Source: Propioniciclava flava (lineage in GTDB: Bacteria > Actinomycetota > Actinomycetes > Propionibacteriales > Propionibacteriaceae). Taken from it: a DNA stretch of 64,000 bases. The position numbers and the translations under genes were made by a program. Shown in pieces: positions 54,323 through 62,084 of the stretch (position 1 is the stretch's first letter; the number at the start of each line of letters is the position of its first letter). The notes under the pieces were generated by a model, which was not told the DNA's origin, ran no database searches, and saw only the letters and a program-made list of their open reading frames with translations. The stretch is taken from assembly GCF_004126535.1 (NCBI RefSeq), contig NZ_PPCV01000003.1, positions 1 through 64,000 on the forward strand, given 5' to 3'.

Positions 54323-56053
54323 ATGGATCGGTTCGGGAAACGTTCGACGCGAGCACTCGCAGGCGTCATCGTCATCGGTGTGCTGGCCCTCACCGGATGC
54401 GGGTCCGACCCCATCACCACGGGCACGCGACCACACGCGGGAGAAGCCCCCGCAGGGGCCACCTTCGACCGGACACCGATCCCGCTCACCCAGATCCCCG
54501 GCTACACCCCACCGGGACGCACCGACGACGGACGCGCGACGCGTCCGCTGCTGGGCACCTCCGGGGAGATCTCCTGGCAGGTGTTCAACCAGGATTCCAT
54601 CCCTCTCACCGACTACAGCGCCCCGCAGCCCGTCTCATGGGGTGACCCGTCGGATTACACCTCGATCCCCGGCGTCTTGGCGTGGCGCGGCAACAACGCC
54701 CGCACTGCCCCGACCTACGGCCAGGCAAACCTCACCGAGAAGAAGATGAGCATCGCCTGGACGCACGACATCGGCGCGGTGGCAGCCGAGGGCAGCTACT
54801 TCCCCGGTGCCGGGTGGACCGGCCAACCCCTGCTGGTGAACTGGCCCCAGGCCACGAAGGCCGCGATGGGCCTCAGCGCCGCCCAGACCGCCGACCCGTC
54901 CTTCACCGAGGTGATCTACCCGGTATTCGACGGCCACGTCTACCGACTTGATCTGGCGACCGGGCAGGAGACGAAGCCGCCCATGGAGGGCCAGTGGGGG
55001 TTCAAGGGCACCGGCTCGATCGATCCCCGCGGTTATCCGCTGCTGTACGCCGGTCAGGGTCTCAACCAGGACGGCGCCCGCAGCGGCCCCTTCGAGTACC
55101 GGATCTTTGACCTGATCCAGAACAAGCAGGTCGCCCACATCAGCGGCACCGACGAGGTTTCTGGACGCAAGGATCCGACCGGCTGGGGCGCGTTCGACTC
55201 CTCCGCGCTCGTGGACGCCCACACCGACACGCTCGTGGAGCCCGGCGAGAACGGGGTCATCTACCAGGCCAAGCTGAACGCGTCCTTCGACCCGGCTGCA
55301 AAGACGGTGAGCGTCGACCCGTCCATCACCAAGATGACCTACCGGCACCCGTATGCGTTCCAGTACGGCATCGAGAGTTCCACCTCCGCGTGGAAGAACC
55401 TGATGTACGCCGGGGACAACGACGGGAACCTCATCTGCTGGGACGCCACCACCTTGCAGATCGTGTGGGCCCGTCAACTCTCGTTCGGCAACGACTCCGA
55501 CACCACGCCGACCCTCGGCGTCGAGAACGGCCGCCCGTACTTGTACACGGGCACATCCGTGGCGGAGTCCGGCGTCCAGAGGCAAGGGCAAGTCGCGCAC
55601 CTGGTGAAGGTGGACGGCTTGACCGGCGATGTCGTCTGGGACCACACCGTCCCGACCATGTTCGACTTCCACGTCAAGGGCGGCGTGCTGGCCACGTCGT
55701 TGCTCGGCAAGGGCGAGGTCGGCGATCTCGTGTTCTACAACGTTGGCCGCACCACGGCTCCCTCCGAGGGCACGCTGCTGGCCTTGGATCGGGTCACCGG
55801 GGCGGTGGCCTGGTCGCGCAGCCTCAGCAAATACTCGTGGAGTTCACCGGTGCTCGTCTCGGGGACCGATGGCCACCAGTACGGCGTCTTCGGGGATTCC
55901 GACGGGGTGCTGCATCTGTTCAATCCGGTCGACGGGCGCGACTACTCGACGCTGTCGCTGGGCAAGAACATCGAGGCGTCGGTGGCGGTCTACAACAACA
56001 TGCTGGTCGTCGCCTCGTACAACCAGAAGATCTACGGCATCAAGCTGAGCTGA
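54323..56053 (+). CDS. PQQ-like beta-propeller lipoprotein (paralogue 1)
   Basis: A 576-residue lipoprotein: signal with lipobox VLALTGC (Cys 29), then a propeller of YxxDxxTG-like blades (VYRLDLATGQETK near 205, LLALDRVTGAVAW near 490, HLFNPVDGRDYS). It shares PGAGWTGQPLL, GWGAFDSSA and NLMYAGDNDGNL-type blocks with the paralogue at 60375. No catalytic residues for a PQQ enzyme were recognised, so it probably binds or scaffolds at the cell surface. Its stop is one base before the next gene, suggesting an operon with that membrane protein. Confidence 0.85.
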   Translation: MDRFGKRSTRALAGVIVIGVLALTGCGSDPITTGTRPHAGEAPAGATFDRTPIPLTQIPGYTPPGRTDDGRATRPLLGTSGEISWQVFNQDSIPLTDYSAPQPVSWGDPSDYTSIPGVLAWRGNNARTAPTYGQANLTEKKMSIAWTHDIGAVAAEGSYFPGAGWTGQPLLVNWPQATKAAMGLSAAQTADPSFTEVIYPVFDGHVYRLDLATGQETKPPMEGQWGFKGTGSIDPRGYPLLYAGQGLNQDGARSGPFEYRIFDLIQNKQVAHISGTDEVSGRKDPTGWGAFDSSALVDAHTDTLVEPGENGVIYQAKLNASFDPAAKTVSVDPSITKMTYRHPYAFQYGIESSTSAWKNLMYAGDNDGNLICWDATTLQIVWARQLSFGNDSDTTPTLGVENGRPYLYTGTSVAESGVQRQGQVAHLVKVDGLTGDVVWDHTVPTMFDFHVKGGVLATSLLGKGEVGDLVFYNVGRTTAPSEGTLLALDRVTGAVAWSRSLSKYSWSSPVLVSGTDGHQYGVFGDSDGVLHLFNPVDGRDYSTLSLGKNIEASVAVYNNMLVVASYNQKIYGIKLS

Positions 56054-58422: not shown

Positions 58423-58746
58423 TCAGGCCTTCTTGACGGTGATCGTCCAGGAGGCGTCCCCCGTCGCGTTGAACTCGGTCACCTCATGCCCAGCGGAGGC
58501 CGCCCAGTTGGGGATCGAGTCCGTGGCCTGGGTGCAGTCGAAGTCGATGACCAGTTCGTCGCCCGAGTCGATCTGGGCGATGGCCTGCTTGGCCTCCACG
58601 AGCGGGAACGGGCACACCTGCCCGAGGGTATCGAGCCGGTAGCGGCGCGGCTCGGCGGTGGCGACGGCGGTCGGAGCCGAGGCGGCGAGGTGCGGCAGGT
58701 CAGGACGGTCGACGAGCGGCTTGATGAAACGGTCAAACAGGGACAT
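58423..58746 (-). CDS. tusA: TusA-like sulfurtransferase with N-terminal extension
   Basis: A 107-residue protein. The C-terminal 75 residues are TusA-like: LDTLGQVCPFPLVEAKQAI with the CPxP cysteine at 45, and the helix/strand core ending TITVKKA. About 35 residues at the front, including MSLFDRFIKPLVDRPDLPH, are extra. Pairing of TusA with a YeeE/TsuA importer is common and thiosulfate sulfur is thought to pass to the cysteine on arrival. It is 41 bases downstream of the transporter. Confidence 0.88.
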   Translation of the reverse strand: MSLFDRFIKPLVDRPDLPHLAASAPTAVATAEPRRYRLDTLGQVCPFPLVEAKQAIAQIDSGDELVIDFDCTQATDSIPNWAASAGHEVTEFNATGDASWTITVKKA

Positions 58747-58787
58747 GAGAGAACTCCTTCGCGGATGGTGTCGCGGGTGGTGAGGGA

Positions 58788-59858
58788 TCAGCGGGCGCCG
58801 ACGAGGTCGTCGTCGCGGGTGAGCAGCACCGGCTGGGCGCCAGCGCGGCGGTGCGTGGTGATGAAGAACCGGGCCCCGACACCGACGCCGAGGAGGGTGA
58901 ACACGAAGGCCACCCACCCCTGGTAGCTGAACAGGGCCGTCTGGACGAGCGAGTTGCCGATGGTGCAGCCGCCCGCCAGTGCCGCGCCGACACCCATCGC
59001 CGTGCCGCCGATGACGGCGCGGACCGCGGTGCGGGCGTCCGGGGCCCGAAGCCGGAACTCCCCTGCCAGCTTCGCGGCGATGTAGGAGCCGGGGATCAGG
59101 CCGAGCACGAAGAACACACCCCAGTCGAGGCTGGCCGGATCCCCGGTCGTCAAGAACTGGACGATGTTCGCGGAGGGTGTCGTGATGCCGAGCCCGGAGT
59201 TGCGCCCGGTGGCGTTCGACAGCGGGTAGGCCGCGGCGGCGAGGACGCCAACGACCACGGCGGTGGCGTTGGGGCTCCATGGGCGGTCGAACAGGAGCTT
59301 GGCCAGCCCGGTGCGGTGCGAGGTGGGGGCGAGGACAGCGACGTGACGGTTGCGCTGGCGGACCAGCGCCCAGGCGACGACGCCCACCAGGAGCGCGACG
59401 AGGAACCACACGCTGATGCCGAGCGAGCCCTGCACCGTGGTGAGGTCGGACTTTTGCGACAAGACCGCATCGTTGAACGGTTTGAGTGCCCCGTACTTCA
59501 TGACGCTGGCGAACAGCGCGTAGAAGATGAGGGCGATCCAGGAGCCGATCAGCCCTTCGCCGGAGCGGTAGTAGGTGCCGGTGGCGCAGCCGCCCGCGAG
59601 CACGATGCCGATCCCGAACAGGAACGATCCACCGATGACGCCCAGCCAGGCGATGTGCGGCACGCTGGCCTTGATCAGCCCGGCGGCGAGCAGCGATTGG
59701 ACGAGGACCGCCTGGACGGCGATCGCGAGCCCAAAAGCGGTCAGCCAGCGGGTCGAGCGGCTGAGCCACACGTCGCGGAAGGCTCCGGTCACACAGAACC
59801 GGCCCCGCTGGAACACGAAGCCCAGCACGACGCCGAGCACCAATCCGGTTGCCACCAT
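58788..59858 (-). CDS. tsuA: YeeE/YedE (TsuA) thiosulfate importer
   Basis: A 356-residue membrane protein with about ten helices in two repeats. Conserved cysteines are in QRGRFCVTGAFRD near residue 22, LAGGCATGTYYR near 90 and LAGGCTIGNSLV near 300, the sites along which TsuA passes thiosulfate. It forms a unit with tusA and is preceded by a long leader with a cysteine-rich short ORF, so sulfur status probably controls it. GAGGAGATG sequence lies upstream of ATG 59858. Selenium compounds are another possible substrate of some family members. Confidence 0.9.
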   Translation of the reverse strand: MVATGLVLGVVLGFVFQRGRFCVTGAFRDVWLSRSTRWLTAFGLAIAVQAVLVQSLLAAGLIKASVPHIAWLGVIGGSFLFGIGIVLAGGCATGTYYRSGEGLIGSWIALIFYALFASVMKYGALKPFNDAVLSQKSDLTTVQGSLGISVWFLVALLVGVVAWALVRQRNRHVAVLAPTSHRTGLAKLLFDRPWSPNATAVVVGVLAAAAYPLSNATGRNSGLGITTPSANIVQFLTTGDPASLDWGVFFVLGLIPGSYIAAKLAGEFRLRAPDARTAVRAVIGGTAMGVGAALAGGCTIGNSLVQTALFSYQGWVAFVFTLLGVGVGARFFITTHRRAGAQPVLLTRDDDLVGAR

Positions 59859-60055
59859 GATTCATCTCCTCAAAGGGTGTGGGTAGTAAAGAATGCGCAC
59901 GCAGGGGTCGCTCATTGCTGTGCGGGCGCGCAAAAGAAAGGGAATAACAATGGGGTGTGGATCAGGCGCAGTGGGGTGTCGCCAGGATCCTCTGCAGGGG
60001 TGAAGGGGTAAGCCAGGGCGCCGTCATGCGGCTCAAAGCCGCAGAGAAGACCTCG

Positions 60056-60136
60056 TCAGGCCTGACAACACGGACACGCAGCCATGCACACGCCGGAGGT
60101 GGCGTGGGGCTGAACGGCGTCCATGGTGTGGAGCAT
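60056..60136 (-). CDS. Cysteine-rich leader peptide of the tsuA-tusA operon (26 codons)
   Basis: On the minus strand an ATG at 60134-60136, with AAAGGA about eight bases upstream, begins MLHTMDAVQPHA and ends GVCMAACPCCQA at a TGA (60056-60058). The four Cys codons crowd the last ten positions, including CPCC. Mycobacterial sulfur genes are known to be controlled by such cysteine-coding uORFs, where ribosome stalling when cysteine is scarce exposes the downstream gene. The ORF lies 197 bases before tsuA, a unit for sulfur import. A second ATG at 60124 would give a 22-codon version. Direct translation is not proven. Confidence 0.65.
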   Translation of the reverse strand: MLHTMDAVQPHATSGVCMAACPCCQA

Positions 60137-60184
60137 GAGGGGATTCCTTTGCTTCAGGCCCGGCATTTGGCCGGTTCGTCACTA

Positions 60185-60214
60185 ACGATAAACGCATCGC
60201 GGCGATTTTGCCAA
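60185..60214 (-). promoter_or_regulatory. Candidate promoter of the cysteine leader and tsuA-tusA
   Basis: TTGGCA (minus strand, 60209-60214) and TATCGT (60185-60190) are 18 bases apart. They stand about 50 bases before the leader ORF, giving a 5' region that contains the ORF and about 200 more bases with a GCGGCT/AGCCGC hairpin near 60028-60042. This accounts for the gap from 59859 to 60374. Confidence 0.5.
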
Positions 60215-60374: not shown

Positions 60375-62084
60375 ATGGTGAAGGCCCGGCGCGTGGTCGC
60401 CACGGGGATCGCGTTCGCGACGGCGCTGAGCCTGGCGGCATGCTCGACCGAAACCGTCCAGGTCGGGCAGCGCCCCAACAAGCCGACGTCCACCGCGGCA
60501 CCGACGCCGTCCACCGGCCAACCGTCGGCGATCCGGCTCTCCAGCTTGCCGGGGTGGACCGACCCCACCAAGGACGGCGCCACCTACACGCGTCCGATCA
60601 CCGATTCTGATGGCACGTTCTCCTGGTCGGTGGTGGATGCCAACGGCATCCCGATCTCGTACACCTCCCGCGAGCAGGTCGTCTTTGGCACGCCCGATCG
60701 GTACAACCAGATCCCTGGCGTGCTCACCTTCCGCGGCAACAATCACCGCACGGGCGGCACCTACGGCACGCCCACCGTCACCCAGGAGAAGCTCAGCGTC
60801 GCCTGGACCAAGCGGATCGGCGAGATCCGCGGCGAGGGCTCCTACTGGCCTGGCGCCGGGTGGACGGGGCAGCCGCTGCTGGTGCAGTGGCCGCGCGAGA
60901 CGAAGGTCGCGATGGGTCTGGCGGACAAGTTCGTCAACGACGACAGCTTCGTCGAGGTCATCTACCCCGTCTTCGAGGGCAAGATCTATCGGCTGGATTT
61001 GGCGACCGGGGAGGAGACCAAACCCCCGATCGAGGTCGGCTGGGGGTTCAAGGGCACGGCGTCCATCGACCCGCGCGGCTTCCCGATGCTGTACGCCGGG
61101 CAGGGCCTCAACGACACCAACGGCACCTACGGGCCGTGGCGCTACCGCGCGTTCGACCTGATCCAGAACAAGGAGGTGTGGCACATCTCCGGGCTTGACC
61201 CGGCCGCGCCGCGCCACGAGTGGGGAGCCTTCGACTCCTCGGCGCTCATCGACGCCGAGACCGACACACTCATCGAGCCCGCCGAAAACGGCCTCATCTA
61301 CAAGGTGAAGCTCAACAGCGTCTATGATCCGGCCGCGAAGAAGGTCTCGATCAACCCGCAAGTGACCCGCCTGCGCTACACCGCGCCGGGCAACGTGCGC
61401 TACGGCGTCGAGAACTCGGCGGTCGCCTACCGCAACCTGATGTTCGCCGCCGACAACTCCGGCAAGCTGTTCGGCTGGGACGCCACCTCCTTGCAGATGC
61501 TGTGGATGCGCGACGTTTCCGACGACACCGATGCCTCGTTGGTGCTGTCGGAGGAGGGCGATGGCGTGTTCCTCTACACGGGCAACGAGGTCGACAACCG
61601 CATCGCTGACGGCGGCAAGGACGCGATCACCAACATTCGCAAGATCGATGCGCTGACCGGTAAGCAGGTGTGGCAATACGACATTCCCGCCTATTACACC
61701 GGTATCAACGGCGGCGTCTTGTCGACCCCAGCCCTCGGCACGGGCCCCTCCGCCGACATGGTGTTCTTCAACATCTCCCGGACGACCGCCCCGCGCGAAG
61801 GCGACATGGTGGCCCTGGACAAGAAGACCGGCGGGGTGATCTGGCGTCGTCATTTGGGCAACTACTCGTGGAGTTCCCCCACGATCGTCACCACGTCGTC
61901 GGGTAAGCAGTACGGCATCCTGAGCGACTCCGATGGCGTCATGCACCTGTTCGACCCGCAGACCGGTCAGGACATTCACACGATCAGCCTGGGTAAGAAC
62001 GTCGAGGCGACCCCGTCGATGTTCGGCGACACCTTGGTGGTGGCCTCCTACGATCGCAACATTTACGCGATCAAGCTGAGCTGA
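60375..62084 (+). CDS. PQQ-like beta-propeller lipoprotein (paralogue 2)
   Basis: A 569-residue lipoprotein related to the protein at 54323. The signal ends in lipobox SLAAC (Cys 23). The propeller shows IYRLDLATGEETK, FRGNNHRTGGTYG near residue 120, a blade NLMFAADNSGKLFGWD, and ALDKKTGGVIWRR. The two paralogues share long stretches and the final KLS terminus but differ in their linker. Role unknown; surface binding or envelope maintenance is a guess. GAGGAGACGAAC precedes ATG 60375. It converges on the glycosyltransferase gene. Confidence 0.85.
   Translation: MVKARRVVATGIAFATALSLAACSTETVQVGQRPNKPTSTAAPTPSTGQPSAIRLSSLPGWTDPTKDGATYTRPITDSDGTFSWSVVDANGIPISYTSREQVVFGTPDRYNQIPGVLTFRGNNHRTGGTYGTPTVTQEKLSVAWTKRIGEIRGEGSYWPGAGWTGQPLLVQWPRETKVAMGLADKFVNDDSFVEVIYPVFEGKIYRLDLATGEETKPPIEVGWGFKGTASIDPRGFPMLYAGQGLNDTNGTYGPWRYRAFDLIQNKEVWHISGLDPAAPRHEWGAFDSSALIDAETDTLIEPAENGLIYKVKLNSVYDPAAKKVSINPQVTRLRYTAPGNVRYGVENSAVAYRNLMFAADNSGKLFGWDATSLQMLWMRDVSDDTDASLVLSEEGDGVFLYTGNEVDNRIADGGKDAITNIRKIDALTGKQVWQYDIPAYYTGINGGVLSTPALGTGPSADMVFFNISRTTAPREGDMVALDKKTGGVIWRRHLGNYSWSSPTIVTTSSGKQYGILSDSDGVMHLFDPQTGQDIHTISLGKNVEATPSMFGDTLVVASYDRNIYAIKLS

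Follow-up and report, generated by a model that had tools for sequence, protein, structure and literature searches.

A short open reading frame that ends in a run of cysteine codons lies in the leader of a thiosulfate import operon, within the 64,000-nucleotide stretch of Propioniciclava flava DNA that was analysed here (the window). Its position raises the question of whether its translation controls thiosulfate uptake according to cysteine supply. The evidence set out below is best explained if this upstream ORF (uORF) acts as a leader peptide gene that senses cysteine and regulates the tsuA-tusA operon by ribosome-mediated attenuation; on the sequence comparisons we regard this reading as very probable.

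The operon order in the window is uORF, tsuA, tusA. The tsuA (yeeE) gene (positions 59858-58788, minus strand) encodes a thiosulfate importer, with a Pfam Sulf_transp match at 1.1e-106 and matches to the solved structures of YeeE and YeeE-YeeD (PDB 6leo and 8j4c), and the tusA gene (58746-58423, minus strand; Pfam TusA, 5.3e-19) encodes a YeeD-like sulfur-carrier partner. YeeD has been described as an essential partner of YeeE for thiosulfate uptake (PMC11073785). The uORF, MLHTMDAVQPHATSGVCMAACPCCQA, comprises 26 codons on the minus strand (60136-60056), from an ATG at 60136 to a stop codon ending at 60056, and has Cys codons at 60088-60086, 60076-60074, 60070-60068 and 60067-60065. Its start codon is preceded, at a distance of 8 nt, by the Shine-Dalgarno (SD) sequence AAGGA (60149-60145, minus strand), and an SD of the AGGA or AAGG type was also present in most relatives; an alternative in-frame ATG at 60166, which would give 36 codons, has no SD. 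A sigma-70-like promoter, TTGGCA-18-TATCGT (60214-60185, minus strand; 9 of 12 matches, with 0.1 expected per shuffled region), was predicted upstream, its -10 box about 50 nt 5' of the uORF ATG. This promoter pair was not seen in the relative G012. Downstream of the uORF, 197 nt separate the stop codon from the tsuA ATG. The preliminary description, which had placed a 26-codon ORF with a good ribosome-binding site and a promoter in the tsuA-tusA leader, followed by some 200 bases of further leader, was borne out in each of these respects. Two similar beta-propeller lipoprotein genes (54323-56053 and 60375-62084, plus strand) flank the AzlC/AzlD-like and tsuA-tusA genes.

An ORF of this kind was seldom produced by chance. 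When the window leader was subjected to dinucleotide shuffling, an SD-led ORF with at least four Cys codons among its last 12 arose in 2 of 1000 shuffles, and the same test gave 0 of 1000 for most of the leaders of relatives. The tsuA uORF was the only SD-led ORF with a Cys tail upstream of the 42 gene-like ORFs in the window. Among 238 gene upstream regions (42 from the window and 196 from fetched loci, with genes called by codon-position composition), eight carried an SD-led uORF with at least three late Cys codons; seven of these, including that of the window, precede tsuA and one precedes a cysH operon, a count in which sulfur genes are over-represented, since possession of tsuA, of cysH or of the Cys pattern had decided which loci were fetched; no other gene in those loci gave a hit. 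The codon pattern CxxxCxCC was also tried as a genome-wide signature and was rejected: it had 16 matches in the genome (15 besides the uORF) against 32 in a reversed control. The three most leader-like of the other matches overlap longer reading frames, and the rest were seen as open-frame lengths only. What is unusual is the short, SD-led, intergenic setting ahead of a sulfur gene, not the CxxxCxCC codon pattern. The uORF is real and conserved, and is probably functional.

TsuA was used to find relatives, both among GTDB genomes and in a set of 198 genomes from the family. Besides the window, 16 genomes of the Propionibacteriaceae and Actinomycetaceae had short uORFs ending in a Cys run ahead of the tsuA operon, and these fell into four peptide classes. 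Class A, from the genus of the window and its neighbours, included MTRHADSRQPHTARLACGMCVAACPCCCRA (G012), MTGHADARQPHTARLACGMCVAACPCCCRA (G001), MTRLADSRRPHTVRSAYGMCVAVACPCCCRA (G013), MIRLADSRRPHSARTARDMCVADACPCCCCA (G122) and MIRLADFRQPSTERLALGACVAACPCCCRA (G007). Class B was represented by MSLIPARARFFGRACSDIRGCRCCCLH (G075), with similar peptides in G088 and G069, and class C by VNTHRVWGHRAGRSVMSSTMMMCSMCRCCC (G113), with similar peptides in G024, G118 and G115; the class D peptides, from the Actinomycetaceae, ended in ...VACMCCSMRCRMI, ...IACMSCGSMHGRMC and ...AMCCSMRSRMC. Each class formed one group in the TsuA tree (A 91/85, B 100/98, C 100/100, D 90/92). The uORF was absent ahead of tsuA in Arthrobacter, Kocuria, Brachybacterium, Corynebacterium and others, so tsuA in general does not need it. 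In G006, where the gene order is tusA-tsuA, the uORF MSRTTVSRQPHAVAGVRMAACPCCPARMA sits before tusA, which indicates that the uORF belongs to the operon and not to tsuA alone.

In five further family members (G062, G084, G083, G095 and G089) the poly-Cys uORF was replaced in situ by a peptide resembling NF042934, a curated model of actinobacterial leader peptides, for example MFLPVTRRHVDLLRVSTATCRG; Kytococcus also lacked the poly-Cys uORF and had an NF042934-like short ORF in its place. In these replacement peptides a single Cys stands at the end. When three of them were scanned with NF042934, that of G062, whose TsuA was sister to classes A plus B, scored 30.8 bits (cut-off 27) and the other two fell below the cut-off, at 24.3 and 24.6. 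Replacement at the same place argues that both kinds of peptide do the same job. The comparison of leaders that had been proposed earlier gave the expected pattern, late Cys codons being kept before tsuA as the remaining peptide changes, and the suggested tie between the uORF and tsuA-tusA control withstood both the altered gene order of G006 and the exchange for an NF042934-type leader.

Upstream of the window uORF is the motif TGAGAC (60222-60217, minus strand), a candidate operator half-site on account of its position upstream of the uORF in relatives. The sequence TGAGA[CT] was found 86-111 nt 5' of the uORF ATG in all seven class A leaders, in one of three of class B and in two of three of class D. 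The leader of the cysH operon in G015 contains a perfect palindrome, TATGAGACAATGTCTCATA (L136, about 1130-1150). Perhaps TGAGA[CT] and this palindrome are operators of a sulfur regulator.

The spacing of the Cys codons varied between leaders (CxxxCPCC, CxxxxCPCC, GCRCC, CSMCRxCC), as expected if codons, and not a folded site, are read. This variation bears on a second explanation, in which copper or sulfane sulfur bound to the Cys residues of the nascent peptide would alter translation arrest and Rho termination, in the manner of CruR. The copper uORF CruR of Bordetella (DUF2946) likewise has a Cys-motif product encoded ahead of a transport operon with a Rho terminator; its nascent product senses copper through CXXC and acts via Rho (PMC9426467), and CxxxCxCC could itself bind a soft metal. 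However, CruR is a longer protein with arrest at RAPP (PMC9426467), whereas the 26-residue window peptide has neither CXXC nor RAPP. Cys spacing was conserved neither between nor within classes, the NF042934-type replacements carry just one terminal Cys, the operon has no copper gene, and the position of the Cys residues close to the C terminus would keep them within the ribosome when the stop codon is reached. Metal or thiol sensing by the nascent peptide is thus very improbable.

Codon usage and RNA structure within the uORF bear on a third explanation, that it encodes a small functional Cys-rich protein with no regulatory role on tsuA. The class A peptide is partly conserved outside the Cys run, as such a protein might be, but the peptides of classes A to D were unlike one another outside the Cys/Met tract. 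The rare codon TGT was favoured: the Cys codons of the uORFs were TGT in 62 cases and TGC in 16 (79% TGT), against 13 and 92 (12% TGT) in the genes of the same loci, a contrast for which the Fisher value of 1e-20 overstates the independence of what are related sequences. Part of this preference may come from pairing inside the uORF. An RNA hairpin, CACGCC-ACCTCC-GGCGTG (60106-60089, minus strand), lies within the uORF and ends at the codon directly before the first Cys codon; the fold of the window uORF had a z of -2.8. A hairpin was present at the same site in class A, where a small sample of five sequences showed two compensated pairs (4 of 500 shuffles were as well paired), and it was therefore kept by compensated changes while residues changed, which also speaks against a conserved protein. 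Of the five class A members tested, three had a uORF that folded more stably than shuffled sequences (z of -2.7 to -3.0), whereas two did not. On this evidence a small protein of independent function is very improbable, and a leader peptide gene read for its Cys codons remains the preferred reading.

The leader RNA was then considered with regard to the switching step. No intrinsic terminator was found in the spacer between the uORF and tsuA, which is at variance with a classical terminator attenuator, and an Rfam search (E up to 1, 14 kb) revealed no known RNA family. The spacer contains a C-rich, G-poor tract (60012-59935, minus strand; 34 C and 11 G in 78 nt) that is a candidate Rho-loading region, and no other among the 42 upstream regions of the window had so high a C/G ratio; class C spacers were less C-rich. 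From this composition, Rho would be the favoured candidate effector, somewhat more likely than masking of the tsuA SD. In the latter scheme, which corresponds to translational attenuation as proposed for M. smegmatis, the stalled ribosome would open a fold that hides the tsuA SD, with no early termination; cysteine sensing would be shared and only the switching step would differ. Translation attenuation is reported for M. smegmatis cysteine genes (Canestrari 2020, as cited in PMC13236596). The leaders are structured, and somewhat more open SDs were obtained with a stalled ribosome in the single cases C_G115, A_G007 and B_G069. However, when a ribosome was modelled on the Cys codons of 15 leaders, the tsuA SD was not consistently released, and in the window it was not released at all; moreover, the spacer ranged from 109 to 502 nt with a poorly conserved sequence. 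The covariation term from RNAalifold was unfavourable for the whole class A leader, so no conserved spacer fold is claimed. Masking of the SD is a possible mechanism, though on this evidence the less likely one.

In the arrangement that we infer for Rho-linked attenuation, the uORF is translated and cysteine acts on it in the following direction. When Cys-tRNA is ample, ribosomes would translate through the late Cys codons and dissociate at the stop codon, and the C-rich spacer, left untranslated, would then let the transcript be lost early, Rho being the most likely agent. When cysteine is short, a ribosome would stall in the TGT tract, altering leader folding or the access of Rho; tsuA-tusA would then be expressed and thiosulfate imported for cysteine synthesis.

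The sulfur metabolism of the host is relevant to such control. The genome (estimated to be 100% complete) had no match to a PAPS reductase or to an NIR/SIR-type sulfite reductase, and in their absence thiosulfate probably serves as a principal source of sulfur. Within the genus, five genomes had a clear tsuA, of which four lacked PAPS reductase, and all seven without tsuA possessed it; PAPS reductase was also missing from one more genome, in which the only tsuA match was divergent. This contrast was weaker across the whole family. Here the import of thiosulfate has probably taken the place of sulfate assimilation, which would make control of tsuA by cysteine sensible. PALP-family genes are present in the genome, and cysteine synthases are expected among them. 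At about position 39335 of C4 in the same genome (minus strand; about 3335 in L135) is a second SD-led, Cys-ending ORF, MSPDQVSRLAASTVVCGCCRMSR, with a short reading frame after it; it adjoins a PALP-family (cysteine synthase-like) gene, apparently frameshifted.

Other sulfur operons of relatives had comparable leaders. In G009 (L139, 1476-1563) and G001 (L140, 1479-1566), leaders of the GRPHVDF...CC type, MRIGQQLNLVGRPHVDFGRVLSSMCCAS and MLNRMPKLVGRPHVDFARVRSSQCCRGC, precede a gene whose sequence suggests a sulfite reductase and which lies upstream of a cysH-like pair; these leaders resemble known HVD-type Cys leaders. The cysH operon leader of G015 ends in TTCMCRMCC. Met codons were frequent in classes C and D, with 3 to 5 among the last 15 codons (binomial P of 0.015 to 1e-4 each; the cases are not independent). 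We tentatively suggest, as a less than likely extension, that the several unlike peptides swapped at one site before a thiosulfate importer, some of them with many Met as well as Cys codons, form with the leaders of the cysH and sulfite reductase operons a ribosome-read sulfur regulon outside the mycobacteria, which in some lineages would sense methionine besides cysteine.

If the cysteine-sensing reading is correct, ribosome-read cysteine control extends from cysteine synthesis operons to the import of inorganic sulfur, in a lineage that has apparently abandoned sulfate reduction and is probably reliant on thiosulfate. The unlike leader peptides at one site would serve as a natural experiment on what such a leader needs: Cys codons placed late, perhaps Met codons too, the use of a rare codon, and a spacer. 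The locus would also provide a concrete case for how actinobacterial Cys leaders that lack terminators switch genes.

No earlier report of tsuA-tusA as the target of a Cys leader was found in the literature searched, and the leader lies outside the curated families. Canestrari et al. are said to have described, in 2020, poly-Cys leaderless uORFs of mycobacteria before sulfur and cysteine genes. The mycobacterial uORFs (NF042933, Ms5788A; NF042936, Ms4527A) likewise are short ORFs with a late Cys run before actinobacterial sulfur or cysteine genes, with the same proposed logic of cysteine-dependent ribosome stalling. In contrast to these leaderless uORFs, that of the window is SD-led with a predicted 5' UTR, its target is a thiosulfate importer, and it matches neither model. 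The NF042934 "putative leader peptide" (cis_reg_atten), of the RRHVDLLRVSTATC type, occupies the same site before tsuA in relatives, but in those cases the peptide differs and contains one Cys. Neither the window peptide nor representatives of classes A to D matched any NCBIfam leader model (NF042933, NF042936 or NF042934, E up to 10), NF042934 gave only a chance-level match in the genome of the window, and a plasmid search gave no match. The proposed extension of mycobacterial-type cysteine control to this lineage therefore stands as far as a conserved Cys uORF before tsuA is concerned, but not as membership of the curated leader families.

Propionibacterium acnes belongs to the same family as the window genome. 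Candidate Cys leaders were described before cys operons of Mycobacterium and P. acnes and before cbs of Bifidobacterium; these had late Cys codons and a polypyrimidine spacer but lacked a terminator hairpin, and Rho was suggested (Seliverstov et al. 2005, PMC1262725). The window leader shares with them the late Cys codons, the absence of a terminator and the pyrimidine-rich spacer. Those leaders precede cys or cbs genes, whereas the target in the window is tsuA-tusA, an arrangement that is conserved across 16 further genomes.
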